Shown: one piece after another, positions 4,328-57,359 of the stretch | Layout of the letters: each line of letters begins with the position of its first letter | Position numbering within the stretch: position 1 is the first letter of the stretch | Origin: Leekyejoonella antrihumi | GTDB taxonomy: Bacteria > Actinomycetota > Actinomycetes > Actinomycetales > Dermatophilaceae | DNA length: 64,000 bases | Reading direction: 5' to 3' | Assembly (NCBI RefSeq): GCF_007845645.1 | Contig: NZ_VCQV01000022.1 | Coordinates: 1 to 64,000, forward strand | Made by a program: the position numbers and the translations under genes | Notes under the pieces: model-generated | What the model was told of the DNA's origin: nothing | Databases searched by the model: none | Seen by the model: the letters and a program-made list of their open reading frames with translations, nothing else

Positions 4328-5503
4328 GTGACGGATGCACTGCGCGCCCCTGGAGGCTTCCCGGTTGTCGGCATCATCGGGGGTGGGCAGCTCGCCCGGA
4401 TGTGCCAGCCACCGGCGGTCGCCCTGAGCCTGACCCTGTCCGTGCTCAGCGAGTCGCCGGATGCGGCCGCGGCGCTCGTGGTGCCGTCCGCGCCGGTCGG
4501 GCAGAAGGACGACGTCGAGGCGATCCGGGCGTTCGCGAGCGGCTGCGACGTCGTGACCTTCGACCACGAGCTGGTGCCGCTGGATGTGCTGGCAGCGCTT
4601 GAGGCAGACGGCGTAAAGATGCATCCCAGCCCGAAGGCGCTCGTCCATGCACAGGACAAACTGGTGATGCGCCGCCGGCTCACCCAGCTCGGCATACCCT
4701 GCCCCGCCTGGGCGCAGGTCAGCGACGTCGCCGAGCTCAAGGCGTTCGCCGACGTGCATGGACTGCCGGTCATCCTCAAGACGCCCCGCGGCGGCTACGA
4801 CGGCAGGGGAGTGCGCGTCATACACGATCCGCGGGACGCCGCCGACTGGTTCGCGCACAGGGAGCCGCTGCTGGCCGAGGAGGCGGTCGACTTCACCCGT
4901 GAGCTTGCCGTCATGGTGGCGCGCAGCCCGTCGGGCCAGGGCGCCGTCTGGCCCGTCGTGCACACGGTGCAGACCGATGGCATCTGCACCGAGGTGATCG
5001 CACCGGCACCCGACCTGGACGGCGACCTGCAGGGCGCCGTCACCCAGGCCGCGCTGCGCATCGCCGGTGAGCTGGACGTGACCGGGGTGATGGCGGTGGA
5101 GCTCTTCGAGGTGCAGGACAGGGCCTCTGGGCGTCCGACGTTCGTGGTCAACGAGCTCGCGATGCGCCCGCACAACAGCGGCCACTGGACCATCGACGGG
5201 TCGGTGACCAGCCAGTTCGAGCAGCACCTGCGCGCGGTCCTCGACCTGCCGCTGGGTGAGGTGACAGCGCGCGCGCCGTGGACCGTCATGACCAACGTCC
5301 TCGGCGGCGACTACCTGGAACTCTACCCGGCCTACCGGCACATCCTGGCGCGGGATCCCGGGCTGAAGGTGCACCTCTACGGCAAGGGCGTGCGCCCGGG
5401 CCGCAAGATCGGCCACGTGACCGTATGCGGCGGCGACCTGGACGCGCTGCGCGCCCGCGGCGCGCACGCCGCCGACTATCTGCAAGGAACGGTCAAAGAA
5501 TGA
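4328..5503 (+). CDS. purK: N5-carboxyaminoimidazole ribonucleotide synthase
   Basis: 391-residue ATP-grasp enzyme that converts AIR, bicarbonate and ATP to N5-CAIR in purine synthesis. Visible: N-terminal [11 protein letters not shown], the ATP-binding lid [11 protein letters not shown], and the C-terminal metal/catalytic region [17 protein letters not shown]. Length is typical. GTG 4328 is preceded by AAGGTGG about 6 bases upstream. The last codon ends in an ATGA at 5500-5503, which begins the small repeat-encoded ORF separating purK from purE. PurE, the next enzyme of the pathway, follows on the same strand. Confidence 0.96.
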
Positions 5504-5577
5504 GAACCCCACAAAGCCACCCCACAAAGTTCTCCGCTCGCAAGCTCGCTCCGATACTTTGCGGGGGCCCCACATGA
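5500..5577 (+). repeat. MIRU-like palindromic repeat, copy (a), between purK and purE
   Basis: The element lies between two ATGA tetranucleotides (5500-5503, overlapping the purK stop, and 5574-5577, overlapping the purE start). A direct duplication of ACCCCACAAAG (from 5506 and from 5519) leads into the stem. CCCCACAAAGT at 5520-5530 pairs with ACTTTGCGGGG at 5556-5566, with one A/C mismatch, around a loop rich in CGCTCGC/GCTCGCTC; a GCCCC follows. The same organisation recurs at 34684-34749, 57263-57359 and 39319-39373, with a degenerate copy at 174-224. It therefore looks like a dispersed mobile or propagated unit rather than a local hairpin. Confidence 0.8.
5500..5577 (+). CDS. 25-codon ORF carried by the purK-purE repeat
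   Basis: ATG at 5500 overlaps the purK TGA (ATGA), and its own TGA at 5575-5577 overlaps the purE ATG at 5574 (ATGA). The frame is open across the whole repeat and would give about 25 residues (begins [10 protein letters not shown]). No known domain. Its likely value is to let ribosomes terminating on purK travel across the insertion and restart on purE, as proposed for the small ORFs in mycobacterial MIRUs. Whether the peptide itself has a function is unknown; translation is inferred, not shown. Confidence 0.35.
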
Positions 5578-33886: not shown

Positions 33887-34687
33887 TCAGAGCTTGGGGG
33901 TGCGGCCGGCCTGGCGGATCGTGGCGATCGCCAGGGACTCGACGGAGTCGACCAGCTCGGGCCGGGAGCGCCAACGCTGCTCGGCATACACGACCGACAG
34001 CTCGGTGCAGCCCATGACGACGACGTCGGCGCCCTCTTCGGTCAGTGCGTCGACCACGGCGAGCAGCCCGGTGACGTCCACCGGGCCGCCGGCCTTCACC
34101 CCGTCGTAGATCACCGACATCACCAGCTCCTGCTGGGCGGTCGAGGGCAGCAGAACCTCGCAGCCCAGTGCTTCGAGCGCGCCCTGGTAGACCCCGGCCG
34201 ACCGGGTCCCGTCGGTGGCGAGGACCGCCACCCGAGGCGCGTGATCGGCGTCGGAGGTCTCCGCTGCTCGACGCTGCGCCGCCTTTGCGGTCTCGTCGAC
34301 GATGCTCACCAGCGGAATCGACACCGCGGCCTCGACTTCGGCAAAGAAGTGGTGCGCCGTGTTGCACGGCACCGAGATGAACGCAGCCCCAAGGGCTTCC
34401 AGTCGTTGCGCGTCCCGGGTGAGCGACGGCGTCGGGTCCGGGTGGGACGGATCCAGAATGGCCGCAGTCCGGTCCGGCGTGGTCGAGTGGTCCAGGACGA
34501 TCAGGTCGAGGTGCTCCTGGTCGTTCGTTGCCGGAGTCAGGTCGACCACGAGCTGGAGGAAGAGGGCCGTCGCCGCCGGACCGAGACCGCCGATCACGCC
34601 GACGACCGCCGCGGACCAGGTGGGGTCGGTGTCGACCCGCAGCTCGGCCAACGAGGGGGAGGGGGTGGTCATACCGGGGGCGGTCAT
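33887..34687 (-). CDS. aspartate/glutamate racemase family protein
   Basis: 266 residues from ATG 34687, which overlaps the repeat ORF stop in ATGA. The second ATG at 34672 is in frame. Fold marks: VVGVIGGLGPAATALFLQ at the start, the first catalytic cysteine in SVPCNTAHHF, VAVLATDGTRSAGVYQ, and the second in VVMGCTELSVV. Two cysteines mean a PLP-independent racemase making D-Asp or D-Glu. Its partner upstream is an ATP-grasp ligase, a pairing known from D-Asp peptidoglycan bridges in lactic bacteria. It is distinct from typical MurI, as it has the aspartate racemase-type start (GGLGPAAT). Confidence 0.85.
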   Translation of the reverse strand: MTAPGMTTPSPSLAELRVDTDPTWSAAVVGVIGGLGPAATALFLQLVVDLTPATNDQEHLDLIVLDHSTTPDRTAAILDPSHPDPTPSLTRDAQRLEALGAAFISVPCNTAHHFFAEVEAAVSIPLVSIVDETAKAAQRRAAETSDADHAPRVAVLATDGTRSAGVYQGALEALGCEVLLPSTAQQELVMSVIYDGVKAGGPVDVTGLLAVVDALTEEGADVVVMGCTELSVVYAEQRWRSRPELVDSVESLAIATIRQAGRTPKL

Positions 34688-34749
34688 ACCGGGGTCCCCG
34701 CGAAGTATCGGAGCGAGCTGGCGAGCGGAGAACTTCGTGGGGTGGTCAT
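34684..34749 (-). repeat. MIRU-like palindromic repeat, copy (b), between ATP-grasp ligase and racemase
   Basis: In the direction of the genes the unit runs from ATGA (34749-34746, the ligase stop) to ATGA (34687-34684, the racemase start). Stem arms are CCCCACGAAGT (complement of 34742-34732) and ACTTCGCGGGG (complement of 34706-34696). Compared with copy (a), the A-T pair has become G-C on both arms. The 9-base GGTATGACC flanks both ends (complements of 34744-34752 and 34682-34690) and recurs at 34667-34675, consistent with a target duplication plus a 15-base tandem. Confidence 0.8.
34684..34749 (-). CDS. 21-codon ORF carried by the ligase-racemase repeat
   Basis: ATG at 34749 overlaps the ligase stop and TGA at 34686-34684 overlaps the racemase ATG, each as ATGA. 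The peptide (begins MTTPRSSPLA) is read in a different frame of the repeat from that in the purK-purE copy, so the amino-acid sequence is not conserved while the start and stop overlaps are. That points to a coupling device, not a conserved peptide. Translation is inferred. Confidence 0.35.
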   Translation of the reverse strand: MTTPRSSPLASSLRYFAGTPV

Positions 34750-36035
34750 ACCAAGGCCTTGGGCTCGGGGTAGTGCCGACGGTACTTGCGCACGTAGTTT
34801 GCCTGGTTCGCAATGATCCAGGCCCACCGGCGGGGGTGACGTTCCGCGCTGTAGAACAACGGGTTGGTGACGTCGCCGGCCTTGATCAGGCGCCGCACCT
34901 TCGCCTTGGTGGCCGGTTCGGTCACATACCGGGTGAGCAGGCGCAGCGGGATCGCGGTGAAGATGTGCTCCTCGGAGGCCTCGAGTGGGTCCACCCGGCT
35001 CAGGTCCTCGCCGTGGACGTACTCGTCGACATACCAGCGGACCGTGTTATGGCCGGCGGCGGTGATATAGAAGCTGGTCCCGCCCAGTCGGGGGTTGAGC
35101 TCGAAGAACACGATCTTGCCGGTGCGCGGGTCGAGCTTGAGGTCGAAGTTGGCGTATCCCCGCCAGCCCACGTGCTCCAGCAGCCGCGTCGCCTGTCCGA
35201 CGACCTCGTGATTGGTCTGCGTCAGGATGGCCGCTGGGAAGCCGACGGTGTCCGGGGAGTGCTCCTCCAGGAGGACCTGACCGTAGGACGCGAACCGCAC
35301 CAGCCCGTTGCGGTCGCTGTAGCAGGTGAGGATGCGCATGCCCTGGTCGTCGCCCGGGATGACGTCCTGCAGGATGAACTTGTCCCGGTATCCCGCGTGG
35401 TACAGCTTGTCGAGCAGGTCGTCCAGCTCGGCGCGGTCGGCCGGGCTGTGCACCTTCCGCTTGCCCTCGAAGGCGACTCCCGCATACGCCTCTGCATTGG
35501 ACGGCTTGGCGATGATCGGGAAGGTCATCGCGTCGACGGCGGCACGAGTCTGCGGTGTGCTGTCCGCATGCTCGGCGAGGTCGTACACGACCGTCGCCGG
35601 GTGCGGGATGTCCAGTTCCTGGCACACCTGGGCGAAGTGCTCCTTGCGGGTGAGCCGGTCGATCAGCTCGTGGTCGCTGTAGGGCACCAGGTAGAGGTCC
35701 TCGAGCCGGTCCCTGACGCGCGCGACGACGCTGACGACGTGGTCCGTGGTGGCCAGCAGCAGGAGCTTGCGGCTGCCGATGCGCGGTGCGAGGTCGCGCA
35801 ACGTGGTGACCAGCGCCTCGGGGTCCTCGAGGCTGCTGATCTGCTGGTGCACGATGAGGGGGCTGTGCGCGATCGCGCCGCCGACCATTCGCGAGACCAC
35901 GACCGTGCGATAGCCGTAGGCCATGTGGAACGACCGGGCGAGGCTGTATCCGAGGCGGTCGCCCCCGAGGATGACCGGCACGAACTCCTGGCCGGGCAGC
36001 AGTGGTTCGCTGGTCGAGGCGTGTGGCGAAGGCAT
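34746..36035 (-). CDS. ATP-grasp amino-acid ligase, D-aspartate ligase-like
   Basis: 429 residues from ATG 36035. N-terminal domain FVPVILGGDRLGYSLARSFH; ATP-grasp core with FPIIAKPSNAEAYAG, KFILQDVIPGDDQGMRI, GYANFDLKLDPRTGKIVFFELNPRLGGTSFYIT, the last closely like the EINPR-x-G-x-S/T-x-Y-x-T segment of D-Asp ligase (Aslfm) relatives. It probably joins D-Asp or D-Glu to a side chain of the peptidoglycan precursor. It stands 10 bases after fbiB and just before the racemase. Other ATP-grasp substrates are not excluded; the family has diverse acceptors. Confidence 0.72.
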   Translation of the reverse strand: MPSPHASTSEPLLPGQEFVPVILGGDRLGYSLARSFHMAYGYRTVVVSRMVGGAIAHSPLIVHQQISSLEDPEALVTTLRDLAPRIGSRKLLLLATTDHVVSVVARVRDRLEDLYLVPYSDHELIDRLTRKEHFAQVCQELDIPHPATVVYDLAEHADSTPQTRAAVDAMTFPIIAKPSNAEAYAGVAFEGKRKVHSPADRAELDDLLDKLYHAGYRDKFILQDVIPGDDQGMRILTCYSDRNGLVRFASYGQVLLEEHSPDTVGFPAAILTQTNHEVVGQATRLLEHVGWRGYANFDLKLDPRTGKIVFFELNPRLGGTSFYITAAGHNTVRWYVDEYVHGEDLSRVDPLEASEEHIFTAIPLRLLTRYVTEPATKAKVRRLIKAGDVTNPLFYSAERHPRRWAWIIANQANYVRKYRRHYPEPKALV

Positions 36036-36045
36036 GCGAGAAAGC

Positions 36046-37107
36046 CTAACCGCGCACGTGCAGGCGCACGCTCTGCGGGCCATGGGCGATGACCTCGCTG
36101 GTCAGCCGTTCGCCCGCGAGCGCAACCTCATGCCGTGCCCACACACGACCCAGCACCACCGGATCCGCCCCGGCGACGAGCAGTTCGACGGTGCCATCCT
36201 CGGCCCGCTCGTCTGTGAGGTGGGTGGCCACGGCATCTGCGGGATCGCCGGCGCTCAGCGCGACCCGCGAGGCCCGCCGGACACGATCCAGAAGCGGCTC
36301 GGGGTGCACGGACTCCAGTCCGGCGGCCGCGGCACGCGGGGTGCCAGGCGGCACGCCGAGGGCGGCGCGCACCGCCTCGGCGCGGCCCAGGCCGAACCAG
36401 TCCGAGGGGCCGGACCGCACGAGGTCGCGTCCGTGCAGGCTCTGCGCGGTGTCCGTGGTCACGAGGTGCGCGAGCCCTCGCACGACCGCAACCGGCACCC
36501 GCTCCAGCTTGCCCTTGACCAGGTCCGCCGCGGCTGCGATCTCGTCGGCCAGGTTGCGGATGGTCACCGCTAGGTCCCGACCCTCGGTGTCGGCCCGGCC
36601 ACGCAGGTCGTCGAGCGGGTCGAGTCCGTGCACGCCGAGCGCGAAGTCGGACACCCCCGCTCGCCAGGGCCGCCCCGAGGTGTCGCTGAGCACCAGGCCG
36701 AACGACACCGAGCTGGGCAGCGCCGACTGCAGCTGCGCGTGGATCCGTGCGGCTGAGGCGTCCGGGTCGCGGGGGAGCAGGAGCAGCCGGTCGTCGCCGG
36801 CGTTCGACGCGTCGATCCCGGCGCCGGCCATCACCGGGCCGGCCACGGACTCGACGACGCGGGTCGGCGCTCCGGTCGTCGCCCGCTCCGTCACGACGGA
36901 GCGCGCCTCCTGCAGCGTCAGCGCCGACCGGTCGCCGGCGACGACGAACAGGTCCTCGGACTTTGACACGACCTTGCTGGTGACGACCACCACATCGCCG
37001 TCGATCAGGGTCGTGCCGCCGCGGCGCATCGCGTCCGCGACGGTCGCTCCGAGATTCGTGCCGGGCACGATCTCCGGTATGCCGTCGACCGGGCAGATGG
37101 TGAGCAT
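36046..37107 (-). CDS. fbiB: coenzyme F420-0:L-glutamate ligase (FbiB/CofE), without nitroreductase domain
   Basis: 353 residues. CofE domain: PVDGIPEIVPGTNLGATVADA, DGDVVVVTSKVVSKSEDL, LVLSDTSGRPWRAGVSDFALGVHGLDPL, then DEIAAAADLVKGKLERVPVAVVRGL. It adds gamma-glutamates to F420-0. Mycobacterial FbiB (about 450 residues) has a C-terminal FMN nitroreductase domain that reduces dehydro-F420. Here only ~110 other residues follow residue ~245 and no FMN-binding pattern is visible, so that reduction must come from another protein. ATG 37107 is 3 bases after the fbiA stop. Confidence 0.9.
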   Translation of the reverse strand: MLTICPVDGIPEIVPGTNLGATVADAMRRGGTTLIDGDVVVVTSKVVSKSEDLFVVAGDRSALTLQEARSVVTERATTGAPTRVVESVAGPVMAGAGIDASNAGDDRLLLLPRDPDASAARIHAQLQSALPSSVSFGLVLSDTSGRPWRAGVSDFALGVHGLDPLDDLRGRADTEGRDLAVTIRNLADEIAAAADLVKGKLERVPVAVVRGLAHLVTTDTAQSLHGRDLVRSGPSDWFGLGRAEAVRAALGVPPGTPRAAAAGLESVHPEPLLDRVRRASRVALSAGDPADAVATHLTDERAEDGTVELLVAGADPVVLGRVWARHEVALAGERLTSEVIAHGPQSVRLHVRG

Positions 37108-37110
37108 CGG

Positions 37111-38082
37111 TCAGGCGGCCTTGCGCAGGTCCATGGCGAGCTCGAGCGCCGCGGCGCCCATGGCGGCTGCCGCGTCCACATCGGTCATCAGCAGCGGGCA
37201 GGCTCGCACCCGCAGACCGGCGACCGGTGCACCCGCGTCCCGTTCGTCGACCAGCCAGCCGTCGAGGAAGTCCGTGTAGAGGCCGGCCACCCCGGCCGGT
37301 GTGACGTCGATCCCGATGGCCTCCAGACAAACGTCGGCGTGACCACGCACCGGCGCGCCGCCCACGAGGGGACACACGCCGACGACCGGCGCGTTGGTGC
37401 CGCGCAGTGCATCCCGGACGCCCGGCACGGTGAGGATGATGCCGATCGACACGACCGGGTTGCTCGGCGGCAGCAGCACCACGTCGGCCTGCCGTATCGC
37501 ATCCAGCACGCCGGGTCCCGCGACGGCGTGATCCATCCCGGCGACGACGAACCGCACGGCCGGCAGCTGGGCCTGATAGCGGACCCACCACTCCTGGAAG
37601 TGCATGGCCCGCTGTTCCTCGCCCTCCTCGACGACCACGTGCGTCTCGACCGGTGTGTCGGTCATGGGGAGCAGCCGCACGTGCTGACCGGGCAGGCCCC
37701 ACCGCTCGGCGAGCCGGGCCGTGACCCGGCTGAGCGGCATACCCTGGCCGAGCCACAGGCTGCGCGCGATGTGCGTGCCGAAGTCCTGGTCGCCCAGGCC
37801 GAACCACTGCGGTGGGACCTCGTATGCCGCGAGCTCGTGCTGGACGGCGAACGTCTCGTCCGCGCGTCCCCAGCCCTGCTGCTCGTGGACCCCGCCACCC
37901 AGGGTGTACAGCAGGGTGTCCAGATCGGGGCAGACGCGTAGCCCGAAGAGTGTGATGTCATCGCCGGTGTTGCCGATGATGGTGAGCTCGTGCGGGCCGT
38001 CCGGCAGGGTGTCCAGGTGGCGGCGCAGGCCACGCAGGAAGCGTGCGCCACCGACGCCCCCGGCCAGTGCAGTGATGCGCAT
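37111..38082 (-). CDS. fbiA: 2-phospho-L-lactate (or phosphoenolpyruvate) transferase for F420 synthesis
   Basis: 323 residues. ALAGGVGGARFLRGLRR (nucleotide-binding N-terminus), IIGNTGDDITLFGLRVCPDLDTLLYTLGG, QHELAAYEVPPQWFGLGDQDFGTHI, VLLPPSNPVVSIGIILTVPG, and PVVGVCPLVGGAPVRG. CofD/FbiA joins the activated phospholactate or PEP donor to FO. It is the first gene of the leftward operon with fbiB, ATP-grasp ligase and racemase. The ATG 38082 faces the whiB gene across a 123-base divergent region with an inverted repeat at 38152-38177 that could influence both directions. Confidence 0.94.
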   Translation of the reverse strand: MRITALAGGVGGARFLRGLRRHLDTLPDGPHELTIIGNTGDDITLFGLRVCPDLDTLLYTLGGGVHEQQGWGRADETFAVQHELAAYEVPPQWFGLGDQDFGTHIARSLWLGQGMPLSRVTARLAERWGLPGQHVRLLPMTDTPVETHVVVEEGEEQRAMHFQEWWVRYQAQLPAVRFVVAGMDHAVAGPGVLDAIRQADVVLLPPSNPVVSIGIILTVPGVRDALRGTNAPVVGVCPLVGGAPVRGHADVCLEAIGIDVTPAGVAGLYTDFLDGWLVDERDAGAPVAGLRVRACPLLMTDVDAAAAMGAAALELAMDLRKAA

Positions 38083-38142
38083 ACCGGACAGTGTGGCAGT
38101 CGCGGTGGTTGCCGTTGCGGGCAGATCCCCTGCTCTGCGCGC

Positions 38143-38172
38143 TTGACTAAAGGCTAATCACACGAGTGTAAT
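38143..38172 (+). promoter_or_regulatory. sigma-70-like promoter of whiB
   Basis: TTGACT (38143-38148) is followed after an 18-base spacer by TGTAAT (38167-38172). This is an unusually A+T-rich, consensus-like pair for the window, and about 34 bases before the WhiB GTG. The -10 is inside the right half of an inverted repeat. Confidence 0.5.
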
Positions 38173-38177
38173 TAGCC
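38152..38177. promoter_or_regulatory. 26-bp inverted repeat, candidate operator at the whiB promoter
   Basis: GGCTAATCACA and TGTAATTAGCC flank CGAG; 10 of 11 positions in each half are symmetrical. It covers the spacer and -10 of the proposed whiB promoter, a position suited to repression. The factor that binds is not known; autoregulation by WhiB or control by a stress regulator are both possible. Confidence 0.5.
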
Positions 38178-38205
38178 TTGCTGTCATTCAATGCAAGGAG
38201 GAGCT

Positions 38206-38475
38206 GTGCAGGAGTTCTCATTATTTGCCTTGCATGACCTCGCAGACGAGGACGGCGAGTTGTCCTGGCAGGAGCGTGCTCTGTGCGCCCAGACCGATCC
38301 GGAAGCGTTCTTTCCGGAAAAGGGCGGGTCAACTCGCGACGCCAAGAAAGTCTGTGTCGGTTGTGAGGTTCAGGCGGAGTGTCTGGAGTATGCCCTCGCC
38401 CACGATGAGCGGTTCGGCATCTGGGGCGGGCTCTCCGAGCGCGAGCGCCGCAAGTTGAAGAAGCGGGCGGTCTGA
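38206..38475 (+). CDS. WhiB-family iron-sulphur regulator (WhiB2/WhmD-like)
   Basis: 89 residues from GTG 38206, chosen because AAGGAGGAG ends 4-5 bases upstream; the ATG at 38191 lies within or before that site. Four cluster cysteines C27, C50, C53 and C59 (LCAQTD ... VCVGCEVQAEC), the turn FGIWGGLSERERR and a basic tail KLKKRAV. WhiB proteins hold a [4Fe-4S] cluster and act with the principal sigma factor. Place next to fbiA matches WhiB2/WhmD of mycobacteria, needed for septation, from memory. A strong RBS and promoter suggest high expression. Confidence 0.93.
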   Translation: MQEFSLFALHDLADEDGELSWQERALCAQTDPEAFFPEKGGSTRDAKKVCVGCEVQAECLEYALAHDERFGIWGGLSERERRKLKKRAV

Positions 38476-38492
38476 GCGCCCACGCACAGAGC

Positions 38493-41400
38493 GTGACCCA
38501 GCCATCCACCGTGGTGGGTAGTGCTGGGTGCTCGGCGTCCGATGCGGACGACACGGGGACCCAGCTGAAGGTGACGACCCTCCTGGTGGTCCAGCAGGGT
38601 TTCGAACCCTGGATCGACCAGACCCTCGCCGCCCTCATCGGGCAGCAGCGGCGACCGGAGCGACTGGTTGTCGTCGATGCGACCGCCGAGCGCCTGATGC
38701 CCGATCGGATCGCAGCGGATGCCGACCTGCACACGGCATTCCCCAGCATCTCGGTCGTCACCGTGCCGAGCGGCACACCCTTTGCCGCGGTGGTGGACAC
38801 CGCCGTCGATGCCCTGCCTGAGCCGGGGGAGGACGCGGTCGTCGCGCGCCGACCACGCAAGCGGGCCCGCACCCACAAGATCCGCCCTCGCGACAAGCAC
38901 GAGTGGCTCTGGCTGCTGCACGAGGACAGCGTGCCGGAGGCGTCCGCGCTGGCCGACCTGGTCCGAGTCGTCGGCCACTCGAGCCGCATCGGCGTGGCGG
39001 GCTGCAAGATCACCCGTCTGCAGGACCGTCGCCGCCTGGTCAATGTCGGCATCGACCTGACCCGCACCGGGCGGCACGTCGGCGCGACGATGCTGGACGA
39101 GCCCGACCAGGGCCAGCACGACGATCGCCGTGACGTTCTCGCCGTGAGCAGCGCCGGCATGATGGTGCGGCGCGACGTGTATACCCGCCTCGGTGGCTTC
39201 GACCCCGCCTTCGACGGCGACGGTGACGGGCTCGACCTGTGCTGGCGGGCGCACCTGTCCGGTCACCAGGTCATCGTCGTCCCGGCGGCTGTCGTGCACC
39301 AGGACCTGGCCTCGGGCAATGACACCCCACGAAGTCCTCGCTCGTCCCTCACTCGGTACGTCGCGGGGACCCCGACAGGAGAGGGGGACCGCCCCGCCCC
39401 GCGCAGCCCGCGCACCCTGCGGCGGCACCGACAGGTTGCGCTGGCCCGATGCTCGCTGCTGGGTATGCCGGTAATGGCCGTGTGGACCACCCTCACCTCG
39501 CTGCTGCTCGCACTGCTGTTTCTGCTGCTCAAGCGCCCGCGCCGGGCGGGGGCCGAGGTCGCCCAGGCCACGGCACCGCTGGGCATCGTCCGGGTCCTTG
39601 GCGCCCGGTTGCGTTTCATGCGCCGCGCGTCGGCACGTCGGCGCCACCTGCGCGCGCTGTTCGTGCCGCTGTCCGGTGCCACCCGATCCGCCATGGAGTC
39701 CCTGCATGACGCCGTGGCGATCGAGGACGCCCGCGATGACGAGTCGAGCACGCCGGAGAGCGGGCCCGCACAGGACGACGTCGACGAGATGGTGCCGGTC
39801 CGCAGCACCTGGTTCCACCGGACCGTGACCAACCCCGGCCTCTGGGCCGTGCTGCTGCTGGCGGCGGCGTCCGCGGTGATGTGGCGGGAGCTGCTGACCA
39901 CCGACGCGCTCCGAGGCGCCGGCAGCGGACTGACCGGCGGTGAGCTCCGGCCGTTTGCGACCGACGCCGACGGCATCTGGGCGATGTGGCGCGACGGCTG
40001 GCAGGGGACCGGCCTCGGTCACGCCAACGTGCCCACTCCATACCTGCCCGTCCTTGCCGCGCTGGCCTGGGTCGTGCAGTGGATTCCCGGGATCAGCGGG
40101 GCGACGACGGGTGCCACCGTCGTCGCCTGGCTGCTGCTGCTCACCATGCCGCTGTCCGGGGCGGCGGCCTACCGGGCCGCGCGCACCGCGACGCATGCCC
40201 GGTGGCCGCGCGCCGCCGCAGCTCTGGCCTGGGCGTCGCTTGCGACCGTGACCACGGCCGTATCGGGTGGCCGGCTCGGCCCCGCCGTAGCGCACATCCT
40301 GCTGCCGTTCGCCCTCGCCGGGATCTTCGAGATCGGCCGCCGCCGGGCGAGCGCGCCGGTCACCTTCGGGACGGTGCTGGCCGTGGCCGGCGTGGGCGCC
40401 TTCGCACCGGCACAGCTGGTGCTGCTCTCCGCGGCGGCCTTGGTCGTGGTCGTCATCGGTCCCGGCTGGGCTCGCCTGCGCGGTCTCATTGTTGCGGTGC
40501 TGCCCTGGGCCCTGCTGGCCCCGTGGACTCGTTCGCTGATCCGCGATGACTGGCGCGCCGTGCTCGCGGGTCCTGGGCAGCTGGACGCCGGCCATGGCGC
40601 CGGCCCCCAGCCGTGGCAGCTGGCCATGTTGCATCCCGGCGGCCCCGGGTCCTACCTCGTGCTCGTCTCCGTGCCGGTCCTGGCGTTCGGCGTCCTCGGG
40701 CTGCTTCGATCCGGCCGTGGTCGGGTGCAGACGGCGCTGATCCTGCTGGCGGCGGTGGGGCTCGCGGCCGGGCTCGCGGCGCCCCGCATCATGCTGGTGC
40801 GAGGGCCCGACGGCGTCCTGTCGCCATGGAGCGGCACCGCCCTGGACGTGCTGGCGGCCGCACTGCTCGGCATGGCGCTGCTGGGCTCGCGAACGATTGC
40901 AAGCCTTCCCCGGCGCGCGCCGGCCCCGGCGAGCGACAGTGCCGTCGGTCCCGACCCGGTCGACGGCGAAGATCCGGTGGATGACGTCGACGACAGTGCG
41001 CCCCCGCGGCGCCGCTGGGGGCTGCGGACCGCGATGCCCGGGCTCGTCGGCCTGGCGCTGCTGCTCGGACTCGGGATGACCGGTGTTGCCGCCTGGTCGG
41101 CCCCGGTCAAGAACCTGCATCCGGCCGCGTCCGAGCTGCCCGGCATCGCGGACGAGCCGGTCCACGGCAGCAGGCAGGTGCGCGCGCTGTCCCTCACCGT
41201 CGGCGCGGACGGGGTGATCGACTACCAGCTGGACGGTGCGGAGCAGGGCCTGCCGGTGAGCGACCTGACCACGCAACGGCCCACCGGGGCGGGTGCGACT
41301 GCCGGCGCCGTCGCCCGTCTGCTCGGCCCACCCGCCGGTGGTGCCGGTCAGACCCTGGCCGAGCAGCTGAACCGACTGGCGATACAGACCGTGGTGGTTC

Positions 41401-41891
41401 GTGGTCTGGGCAGCACGGCGCAGCTCACCCAGTCGCTGCAGGCGACCGGGATCCTCACGTCGCTGCGCGCCGGCCGCGGCGTCACGGTATGGCGAGTGGC
41501 CCCGCTTGTGGTGGGCGATGGGGCGCGGACGGTCGACGCCAGCCGGGTCACGTTGTACTCCGGCGGGCAGCCTGCACTCGAGCTGCCGTCCACGTCCTCG
41601 CACTCGCGATCGAGCACAACGGTCCCACAGGGCGCCACCGGACGGATGATCGTCCTGTCCGAAGGGCGCGGCTGGGCGTCCGTCGGCACGGCGCGGCTGA
41701 ATGGGCACCCGCTGCAGGCAACAACGCTGGACGGACTACCGGCCTACCGGCTGGGCGCGAGCGGCGGGCACCTGGTGATCGACCCGGGTGTTGCCTTCTC
41801 CCGACTGCGACTGGTCCAGGTAGTGTTGCTGATCCTCTGCCTGTTCCTGGCGGTCCCGTTCGGCAACCGCCGCTCGAGGAGACTTGCATGA
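38493..41891 (+). CDS. giant membrane glycosyltransferase (GT2 domain plus multi-pass and extracellular regions)
   Basis: 1132 residues, GTG 38493. Residues ~20-270 are GT2-like: TTLLVVQQGFEPWIDQTLAAL, WLWLLHEDSVPEASAL (DXD-like), GVAGCKITR, MMVRRDVYTRLGGFDPAFDG, and DGDGLDLCWRAHLSGHQV. A helix at ~330-348 and some ten more between ~450 and 870 follow, then an extracellular stretch (~875-1100) and a last helix near 1110-1125. This architecture is conserved downstream of whiB in many actinobacteria, with DUF5719 following. The sugar acceptor is unknown but must be cell envelope. Residues ~276-294 are coded by an in-frame repeat copy. Confidence 0.85.
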   Translation: MTQPSTVVGSAGCSASDADDTGTQLKVTTLLVVQQGFEPWIDQTLAALIGQQRRPERLVVVDATAERLMPDRIAADADLHTAFPSISVVTVPSGTPFAAVVDTAVDALPEPGEDAVVARRPRKRARTHKIRPRDKHEWLWLLHEDSVPEASALADLVRVVGHSSRIGVAGCKITRLQDRRRLVNVGIDLTRTGRHVGATMLDEPDQGQHDDRRDVLAVSSAGMMVRRDVYTRLGGFDPAFDGDGDGLDLCWRAHLSGHQVIVVPAAVVHQDLASGNDTPRSPRSSLTRYVAGTPTGEGDRPAPRSPRTLRRHRQVALARCSLLGMPVMAVWTTLTSLLLALLFLLLKRPRRAGAEVAQATAPLGIVRVLGARLRFMRRASARRRHLRALFVPLSGATRSAMESLHDAVAIEDARDDESSTPESGPAQDDVDEMVPVRSTWFHRTVTNPGLWAVLLLAAASAVMWRELLTTDALRGAGSGLTGGELRPFATDADGIWAMWRDGWQGTGLGHANVPTPYLPVLAALAWVVQWIPGISGATTGATVVAWLLLLTMPLSGAAAYRAARTATHARWPRAAAALAWASLATVTTAVSGGRLGPAVAHILLPFALAGIFEIGRRRASAPVTFGTVLAVAGVGAFAPAQLVLLSAAALVVVVIGPGWARLRGLIVAVLPWALLAPWTRSLIRDDWRAVLAGPGQLDAGHGAGPQPWQLAMLHPGGPGSYLVLVSVPVLAFGVLGLLRSGRGRVQTALILLAAVGLAAGLAAPRIMLVRGPDGVLSPWSGTALDVLAAALLGMALLGSRTIASLPRRAPAPASDSAVGPDPVDGEDPVDDVDDSAPPRRRWGLRTAMPGLVGLALLLGLGMTGVAAWSAPVKNLHPAASELPGIADEPVHGSRQVRALSLTVGADGVIDYQLDGAEQGLPVSDLTTQRPTGAGATAGAVARLLGPPAGGAGQTLAEQLNRLAIQTVVVRGLGSTAQLTQSLQATGILTSLRAGRGVTVWRVAPLVVGDGARTVDASRVTLYSGGQPALELPSTSSHSRSSTTVPQGATGRMIVLSEGRGWASVGTARLNGHPLQATTLDGLPAYRLGASGGHLVIDPGVAFSRLRLVQVVLLILCLFLAVPFGNRRSRRLA
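39319..39373 (+). repeat. MIRU-like palindromic repeat, copy (d), inside the glycosyltransferase gene
   Basis: ATGA at 39319 leads to CCCCACGAAGT (39325-39335), a short CTCGCTCG-rich loop, and ACGTCGCGGGG (39358-39368) then ACCCC. It has one more mismatch in the stem than copies (a)-(c). It is read in frame (GNDTPRSPRSSLTRYVAGTP), adding Arg/Ser/Pro-rich residues in the linker between the GT2 domain and the first following transmembrane helix. There is no second ATGA. Confidence 0.65.
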
Positions 41892-55592: not shown

Positions 55593-57266
55593 ATGAGCCG
55601 GATGGATACCGTCGGCAGCTGGACTCGCCGGGCGGCACGCTTCCTCTACCGCCGCTGGCGGCAGTCATTGCCGTTGCGGGTGGTGACGATCACGACCATC
55701 GTCGGCGGACTGTTCACCCTGGCGCTGGGCACCTACATGTACCAGCAGATCGCCGACGGACTGGTGCACAGCAGCATGGCGTCGGCCGAGCAGCAGTCGC
55801 TCGTCAAGCGGGCCGCCGCGCAGAACATCTTCTTGAACACCGACCGCACGGATCCGGCGTCACTGAAACTGGTGGCAGGGCAGACGGTGCAGTCGATCGG
55901 CTCAACCGGCGACGACCCGTCCGTCCTGGTGGTCCTGCAACAGTCGTTGAACAACACCTATCAGGCACTGCCGAGGATCAGCTCCGGCGGAGTCAGCCCG
56001 GACATCGTGCCCTCCGACATCGTCCATGCGCTCGCGAAGGACCCTGCTCATCAGCAGGTCGAAATCATCACCGCTCCGTACAAGGGCCGGCAGGGCGTGC
56101 CGGCCGTGCTGGTGGGCTCGCGCATCACGGTCCCGAACGCGGGCGAGTACGACCTCTACCTCATCTACTCGATGGCCCCCGAGCAGCAGTCGCTCAACAT
56201 CGTCAAGGGGTCGCTCCTTGCCGGCGGCCTGGCGCTCCTGCTGCTGCTCGCCGGCCTGGCCTACCTGGTCACCCGTATGGTGGTCGCCCCGGTCCGCGCC
56301 GCGGCGCACGTCTCCGAGCGGCTGACCGCCGGAGCCCTCAATGAGCGCATGCAGGTGTCCGGTGAGGACGACCTGGCCCGGCTGGCAACGTCGTTCAACG
56401 CGATGGCCGACAGCCTGCAACGGCAGATCCGCCAGCTGGAGGACCTGTCGCAGTTGCAGCAGCGTTTCACCTCGGACGTCTCACACGAGCTGCGGACGCC
56501 CCTGACGACCATCCGGATGGCCGCCGACCTCATCCATGCGAGCCGGGATGACTTCACCGCCCAGGTCTCTCGGTCATCCGAGCTGTTGCACCGGGAGCTG
56601 GGGCGGTTCGAGTCTCTGCTCACCGACCTCTTGGAGATCAGCCGCTTCGACGCCGGCGCCGCCGCGCTGACGACCGAGACGGTGGACCTGCGGGTCATCG
56701 TCGGGAGTGTCGCCGAGGGCGCCGCGTCGCTGGCCGATCGGGCCGGGACGCAGCTGCGCGTGCATGCCCACACGCCCGCGCTTGCCCCGATGGACTCCCG
56801 TCGCATCGAACGGATCGTGCGCAACCTCGTCACCAACGCCATCGAGCACGGCGAGCGGCGGCCGATCGACATCTCCGTCGGCGTCAGCGCCACCGCGGTG
56901 GCCGTATCGGTGCGGGACTACGGAGTGGGCCTGAAACCGGGAGACCAGGCGATGGTCTTCAACCGCTTCTGGCGAGCCGACCCCGCGCGTGCCCGAACCA
57001 CCGGTGGCACCGGCCTCGGACTGTCGATCTCGCTGGAGGACGCCCAGCTGCACGACGGGTGGTTGCAGGCGTGGGGCGAGGTCGGCCGCGGGGCCTGCTT
57101 CCGTCTCACCCTGCCGCGCAAGGCGGGCGTGCCGATCCGCCATTCACCGGTGTCGCTGTCTCCGGACGCGGCCGCTCGGGGGAAGCTGCCGACCGGCACC
57201 GGCGGCCAGACCGGCGGTGTGCCGCCCGGGGCGCCCGTCAACCTGCAGCTTCGGCCACCAACATGA
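55593..57266 (+). CDS. mtrB: MtrB sensor histidine kinase
   Basis: 557 residues from ATG 55593 (GTG 55584 and ATG 55602 are alternatives). TM1 is VVTITTIVGGLFTLALGTYM; a ~150-residue extracytoplasmic sensor; TM2 LLAGGLALLLLLAGLAYLV, HAMP, HisKA with H298 (DVSHELRTPLT), and HATPase (NLVTNAIEHG, GVGLKPGD, GGTGLGLSIS). A Gly/Pro-rich tail follows. It phosphorylates MtrA; LpqB interacts with its extracellular part in mycobacteria. The stop falls in ATGA, which is also the lpqB start and the left end of a repeat copy. Confidence 0.93.
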   Translation: MSRMDTVGSWTRRAARFLYRRWRQSLPLRVVTITTIVGGLFTLALGTYMYQQIADGLVHSSMASAEQQSLVKRAAAQNIFLNTDRTDPASLKLVAGQTVQSIGSTGDDPSVLVVLQQSLNNTYQALPRISSGGVSPDIVPSDIVHALAKDPAHQQVEIITAPYKGRQGVPAVLVGSRITVPNAGEYDLYLIYSMAPEQQSLNIVKGSLLAGGLALLLLLAGLAYLVTRMVVAPVRAAAHVSERLTAGALNERMQVSGEDDLARLATSFNAMADSLQRQIRQLEDLSQLQQRFTSDVSHELRTPLTTIRMAADLIHASRDDFTAQVSRSSELLHRELGRFESLLTDLLEISRFDAGAAALTTETVDLRVIVGSVAEGAASLADRAGTQLRVHAHTPALAPMDSRRIERIVRNLVTNAIEHGERRPIDISVGVSATAVAVSVRDYGVGLKPGDQAMVFNRFWRADPARARTTGGTGLGLSISLEDAQLHDGWLQAWGEVGRGACFRLTLPRKAGVPIRHSPVSLSPDAAARGKLPTGTGGQTGGVPPGAPVNLQLRPPT

Positions 57267-57359
57267 GCACCCCACAAAGAACACCCCACAAAGTTCGACC
57301 TCGTGCCTCGGCCGATACTTTGCGGGGACCCCATTCTCCGCTCGTCGGCTCGCTCCGAT
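57263..57359 (+). repeat. MIRU-like palindromic repeat, copy (c), composite, at the mtrB-lpqB junction
   Basis: ATGA at 57263-57266 is the mtrB stop. Duplicate arms CCCCACAAAG occur at 57270 and 57284, the same doubling as at purK-purE. CCCCACAAAGT (57284-57294) pairs with ACTTTGCGGGG (57317-57327), then ACCCC. From 57334 a second fragment, TTCTCCGCTCG / GGCTCGCTCCGAT (57334-57359), matches the interior of copy (a), so this looks like a nested or recombined pair. No right-hand ATGA remains; the frame is open into lpqB. Confidence 0.75.

Follow-up and report, generated by a model that had tools for sequence, protein, structure and literature searches.

Mycobacterial interspersed repetitive units (MIRUs) are dispersed repeats of 40-100 bp which occur singly or in tandem, and in relatives without MIRUs a mere few bases separate the genes (PMC12548453, PMC2734929, PMC2453075). 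They are apparently mobile repeats which insert at start codons, and their internal ORF is coupled to the gene with -4 spacing (J Bacteriol 2025 review, PMC12548453). Units of 77 and 53 bp have been published (PMC2453075), and both lengths are 2 mod 3, which is the phase that a relay requires. Here, we analysed a hairpin repeat which is located between the genes for an ATP-grasp ligase and an Asp/Glu racemase family protein in a 64-kb window (the window is the whole stretch of DNA that was analysed, 64,000 nucleotides). We consider it likely that this mobile hairpin repeat entered the ATGA overlap of the two genes and remade the overlap on both sides, and that the relay ORF formed in this way hands ribosomes from one gene to the next.

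The hairpin repeat shares several features with MIRUs. It is a short dispersed repeat, for which a covariance model based on 44 copies gave 135 matches in its own genome, and it forms tandem arrays of 2-4 units. It follows the translational direction of the adjacent genes (60 vs 7), and at 27 of the 32 single-copy NTGA..NTGA sites, where only part of all copies are located, it carries an internal ORF with -4 (ATGA) overlaps at both ends. In addition, the genes are directly adjacent in element-free relatives at two junctions. Unlike MIRUs, however, the repeat resides in a host from another actinobacterial family, not in a mycobacterium, its core is 47-55 bp long, and many copies are also found after stops other than NTGA. 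Particularly, it has a 10-bp covarying stem and a Shine-Dalgarno-like GRGG in the hairpin, and Supply et al. in 1997 are said to have reported MIRUs as lacking dyad symmetry. The hairpin repeat works like a MIRU but is not filed as one here, being set apart by its host and its hairpin in a comparison with MIRUs by description only. In the open-access literature we found no published description of this hairpin repeat, only MIRU and other named repeat families, and the family is apparently undescribed so far. The MIRU way of life, in which a repeat enters an operon at ATGA and the genes stay coupled, thus appears not to be confined to mycobacteria.

At the ligase/racemase junction, the following features were located in the window.

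34746..36083, minus strand: ATP-grasp ligase, upstream gene (Pfam ATP-grasp matches; TGA stop inside the first ATGA)
34744..34752, minus strand: first GGTATGACC, ligase stop and relay start, ancestral junction (upstream flank agrees with the relatives' empty sites)
34690..34744, minus strand: 55-bp hairpin repeat core (CACCCCACGAAGT...ACTTCGCGGGGACCCCG; covariance model R1, E 1.1e-13)
34684..34749, minus strand: relay ORF of 21 codons, ATGA to ATGA (ATG 34749, TGA 34686-34684)
34695..34699, minus strand: Shine-Dalgarno-like GGGGA with a putative role, in the hairpin 3' arm, 7 nt upstream of racemase ATG 34687
34682..34690, minus strand: second GGTATGACC, relay stop and first racemase ATG (34687)
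34667..34675, minus strand: third GGTATGACC, second in-frame racemase ATG (34672), from a 15-bp tandem duplication
33887..34687, minus strand: Asp/Glu racemase family, downstream gene (Pfam PF01177, E 6.9e-38)

The relay ORF starts at an ATG which overlaps the ligase stop (ATGA), and its TGA overlaps the racemase-frame ATG 34687; the second in-frame racemase ATG lies 5 codons past the latter, within the third GGTATGACC. All three occurrences of GGTATGACC in the window are on the minus strand, compared with 0.21 expected, and none of the 100 shuffles gave three. The copies numbered 1 and 3 have 14 bases in common (GGTATGACCACCCC), and the second and third copies form one 15-bp tandem duplication. 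A sequence-only reading of this DNA had described GGTATGACC on both flanks of the element with a third copy just inside the racemase start, together with a 21-codon relay ORF linking the ligase stop and the racemase start, and both descriptions were exact. An Rfam search of the window gave no matches. The ligase gene directly follows cofE and cofD (F420 genes), and its orthologues were found in 45 of 120 family genomes. The cofD, cofE, ligase and racemase genes are clustered on the minus strand (33887-39160) and the ligase-racemase adjacency is kept in many relatives; this suggests a joint pathway near F420 synthesis.

The history of the junction can be read from relatives without the element. 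In all six relatives whose ligase is ~70% identical, the two genes overlap directly (-4), by ATGA in Metallococcus, Allobranchiibius, L058 and L060 and by GTGA in L055 and L059. A single GGTATGAC[C/G] is present at the empty junction in three distinct relatives, and in L060 it is exactly GGTATGACC, once. The empty site predicted earlier, with a single GGTATGACC and an ATGA overlap, was therefore found, and the relatives' element-free overlaps support the related proposal that, through the duplicated ATGA junction, the ligase kept its stop and the racemase its start. Upstream of the first copy, the flank matches the empty sites, and the GGT that precedes the racemase ATG is therefore ligase sequence in a second copy, which probably arrived as a duplication together with the insertion. 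In another genus (L063 and L064), a different repeat-like insert (GGTCGAG..GGCGAGCC..TCGAGACC) was observed in the racemase N-terminus at this junction.

The window holds other copies of the repeat, as listed below.

5518..5572, plus strand: repeat core between purK (4328-5503) and purE (ATG 5574)
5500..5577, plus strand: purK/purE relay ORF of 25 codons, which reads another repeat frame
39323..39374, plus strand: divergent copy within ORF 38493-41891 of a family-2 glycosyltransferase
57282..57333, plus strand: divergent copy, which extends the downstream gene in frame at its N-terminus (this gene shares its frame with the ATG that overlaps the upstream stop)

At the purK/purE junction, 19 of the 20 relatives overlap directly by NTGA with the element absent, and this copy probably has the same history as the ligase/racemase copy. 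The relay frames of the two copies differ while the ATGA overlaps are kept, as the sequence-only reading had noted, but the purK frame is a minority and most copies start in a common frame. In one relative (L196), a mini tandem of GTCCCGGTCGAATGAGC-like units remakes ATGA several times at the purK/purE junction, with no direct overlap.

The target duplication at the ligase/racemase site is 9 bp, or up to 14 bp counting the shared CACCCC. When all NTGA sites were checked, the bases at -1 and +4 matched across the two sides more than in permuted pairs (p 0.0015 and 0.0005); with single-copy NTGA sites alone the match was weaker (p 0.053 and 0.021), and copies away from NTGA had no shared flanks (p 0.9). 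A general target-site duplication across the family was not supported away from NTGA sites; only the bases next to NTGA match and none do at other sites. Target-site duplication, as first proposed for this locus, is well supported there but is not established as a family-wide mechanism; either the duplication is restricted to NTGA insertions, or the remade NTGA is what selection retained. Like the MITEs/Correia (NEMIS) elements, the hairpin repeat has terminal inverted repeats, a high copy number and, at the ligase/racemase site, signs of target-site duplication, whereas over the whole family this duplication is inconsistent.

The host genome (5.3 Mb, 139 contigs) has Metallococcus carri and an Allobranchiibius sp. 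as its nearest named relatives, and Knoellia and Janibacter are more distant. The repeat is present in 38 of 148 relatives, with a maximum of 112 copies per genome, and in 12 of 346 genomes sampled across the class, seven of which are outside the family. Its consensus is CACCCCAC(A/G)AAGTTCTCCGCTCG..CTCGCTCCGATACTT(T/C)GCGGGGACCCCG, and the arms pair as the 10-bp stem, in which a G-C/A-U covarying pair was found and which withstands slid controls. In the sense RNA the stem has one A.C mismatch, for which the antisense has G.U, and 86 of 87 copies fold more stably as antisense RNA.

To place the copies relative to genes, the flanking genes were called by codon usage trained on the window. In the own genome, both same-strand flanking genes run along the element at 60 copies or arrays and against it at 7 (P 6.6e-12). 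Of 210 copies, 125 have a stop trinucleotide within the final 8 bases of the left flank, compared with 15-26 for windows farther out, and [AG]TGA is present in the first bases after the repeat in 72 copies, compared with 12-25 farther out. The copies settle directly after stop codons, in gene sense. The majority are away from NTGA..NTGA junctions, and coupling is therefore not the only setting of the family. This placement, which includes convergent gene ends, and the conserved stem would also be expected of a REP-like element whose hairpin stabilises or terminates the 3' end of mRNA, with the ATGA geometry being incidental to insertion in tight operons. The hairpin repeat indeed resembles the REP/RAYT palindromes as a short imperfect palindrome with a mismatched stem and many copies, outside genes and downstream of stops. 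However, the hairpin has no T-run, the sense hairpin is the weaker one in nearly all copies, as given above, and the sense-strand fold of the window copy is no better than that of shuffled sequences. In addition, no Y1/RAYT transposase (Y1_Tnp, PF01797; RAYT/IS200) was detected in the own genome or in any of ten carriers, where controls were positive, and the relay-ORF geometry at ATGA junctions also differs from these palindromes. Such a 3'-end role predicts neither the 2 mod 3 rule nor the spacer compensation described below, and we regard it as quite improbable.

When NTGA is present on both flanks, an ATG-ATG distance of 2 mod 3 is needed for a relay ORF from the first to end on the second. 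A mod-3 test took the place of a shifted-frame control for relay reach, in which one shift began at the stop itself and made the control partly degenerate. Among single-copy NTGA..NTGA sites, 12/13 in the own genome are at 2 mod 3 (P 1.7e-5), as are 15/19 in relatives (P 6.1e-5), a set added later mainly for replication. The pooled sites are in relay phase in 27/32 cases (P 3.8e-9), and these binomial P values overstate independence, because subfamily copies share geometry by descent; counted by distinct geometry, 8 of 12 are in phase (P ~0.02). All 27 relay ORFs at in-phase sites are open end to end, which alone is weak evidence since the consensus is without stops in all frames. The spacers compensate the core length, with (core, right spacer) being (55,2), (54,0), (52,2), (48,0) and (47,1), and intact tandem arrays hold the phase per unit, for example, 2 x 62, 2 x 65, 3 x 53 and 2 x 56. 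Some arrays show other periods, and the comparison of coupled vs uncoupled periods, which leans toward the rule but is mixed, was not used as evidence. Two off-phase exceptions still join genes, one as an in-frame N-terminal extension (L148) and the other by read-through of the upstream gene across the element (L043).

The same geometry could be a by-product of the insertion mechanism, if a fixed unit length and a target-site duplication give 2 mod 3 without selection for coupling. Most own-genome sites do have one geometry (a core of 55 bp with a right spacer of 2 and a distance of 62 or 65), and the bases adjoining NTGA agree between the two sides. However, at least 8 distinct length/spacer combinations across several genera hold the phase, and flank duplication is absent from copies away from NTGA, which makes this explanation unlikely, although it deserves some weight. 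It is far harder to believe that the relay ORFs code for a family of small functional peptides. Their common start is suggestive, as 26 of 30 begin in the common repeat frame with an MxTPQSSPL-like N-terminus. Past the loop, however, the C-terminal halves are in different frames by subfamily (..SLRYFAGTP, ..SDTSRGPR, ..LLCGDPE, ..PILRGGP), the purK copy is in another frame from the start, and many copies have no start codon. The codon changes are mostly non-synonymous (18/30), and the synonymous share (12/30) is slightly above the 28% expected by chance. The varied C-terminal frames and the mostly non-synonymous changes fit selection for ribosome delivery to the next ATG, with the peptide being unimportant. 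The sequence-only reading had proposed that coupling, and not a peptide, is selected for, and this holds family-wide, given the share of sites in phase, the open relay ORFs and the different C-terminal frames.

Based on the preferred reading, a ribosome relay at the ligase/racemase junction, we propose the following course. A mobile 47-55 bp hairpin repeat would have spread in the genome and in relatives, in gene sense and after stop codons, and its insertion into the ligase/racemase ATGA would have duplicated the overlap, so that the first ATGA ends the ligase and the second starts the racemase. The repeat between the two ATGAs would then be a stop-free minigene running from one to the next. 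Ribosomes finishing the ligase would re-initiate on the first ATG and translate the relay ORF, which would open the hairpin and free the GRGG in its 3' arm. Termination would follow at the second ATGA, where the ribosomes would start again on the racemase, and no function is expected of the relay peptide itself. The architecture and the phase rule are seen in the sequence, as are the empty sites and the uninterrupted relay ORFs, and from these we infer a probable relay of ribosomes in vivo, how the element was inserted and what the GRGG is likely to do. GRGG is located in the 3' arm 7-9 bases before the downstream ATG, and the mean anti-Shine-Dalgarno pairing at 30 junctions is -6.65 kcal/mol, compared with -2.69 kcal/mol for shuffled sequences. 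The element may therefore bring a landing site as well as the relay.

A broader proposal, which we hold only tentatively and at slightly below an even chance, is that this hairpin family, widespread in one actinobacterial family and unrelated to MIRUs, independently evolved insertion at translational-coupling sites. Its length would be under genome-wide selection for relay phase, its Shine-Dalgarno sequence would be exposed only upon relay translation, and it would serve as a portable, frame-independent device for the hand-over of ribosomes. Using the dozens of natural copies, in which the lengths vary and the phase is kept, it can be tested directly whether selection for termination-reinitiation coupling governs the survival of repeats in operons. 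The repeat copies can also be regarded as natural short reinitiation cassettes.

Several individual copies show further variation. In genome G060 (L174, L177, L178 and L090), the element seems longer, with CTAGGA before and TCCAC...CCTAG after the repeat, which lengthens the dyad. At L028 (1553-1660), part of a tandem array is N in the stored genome, as a masked or unassembled repeat. Within the window, the copy forming the N-terminal extension is accompanied by a second, truncated copy (57263-57333, plus strand), and the copy at 39323-39374 lies directly past the catalytic domain match of the 1132-aa glycosyltransferase ORF, where the reading stays open across the copy.
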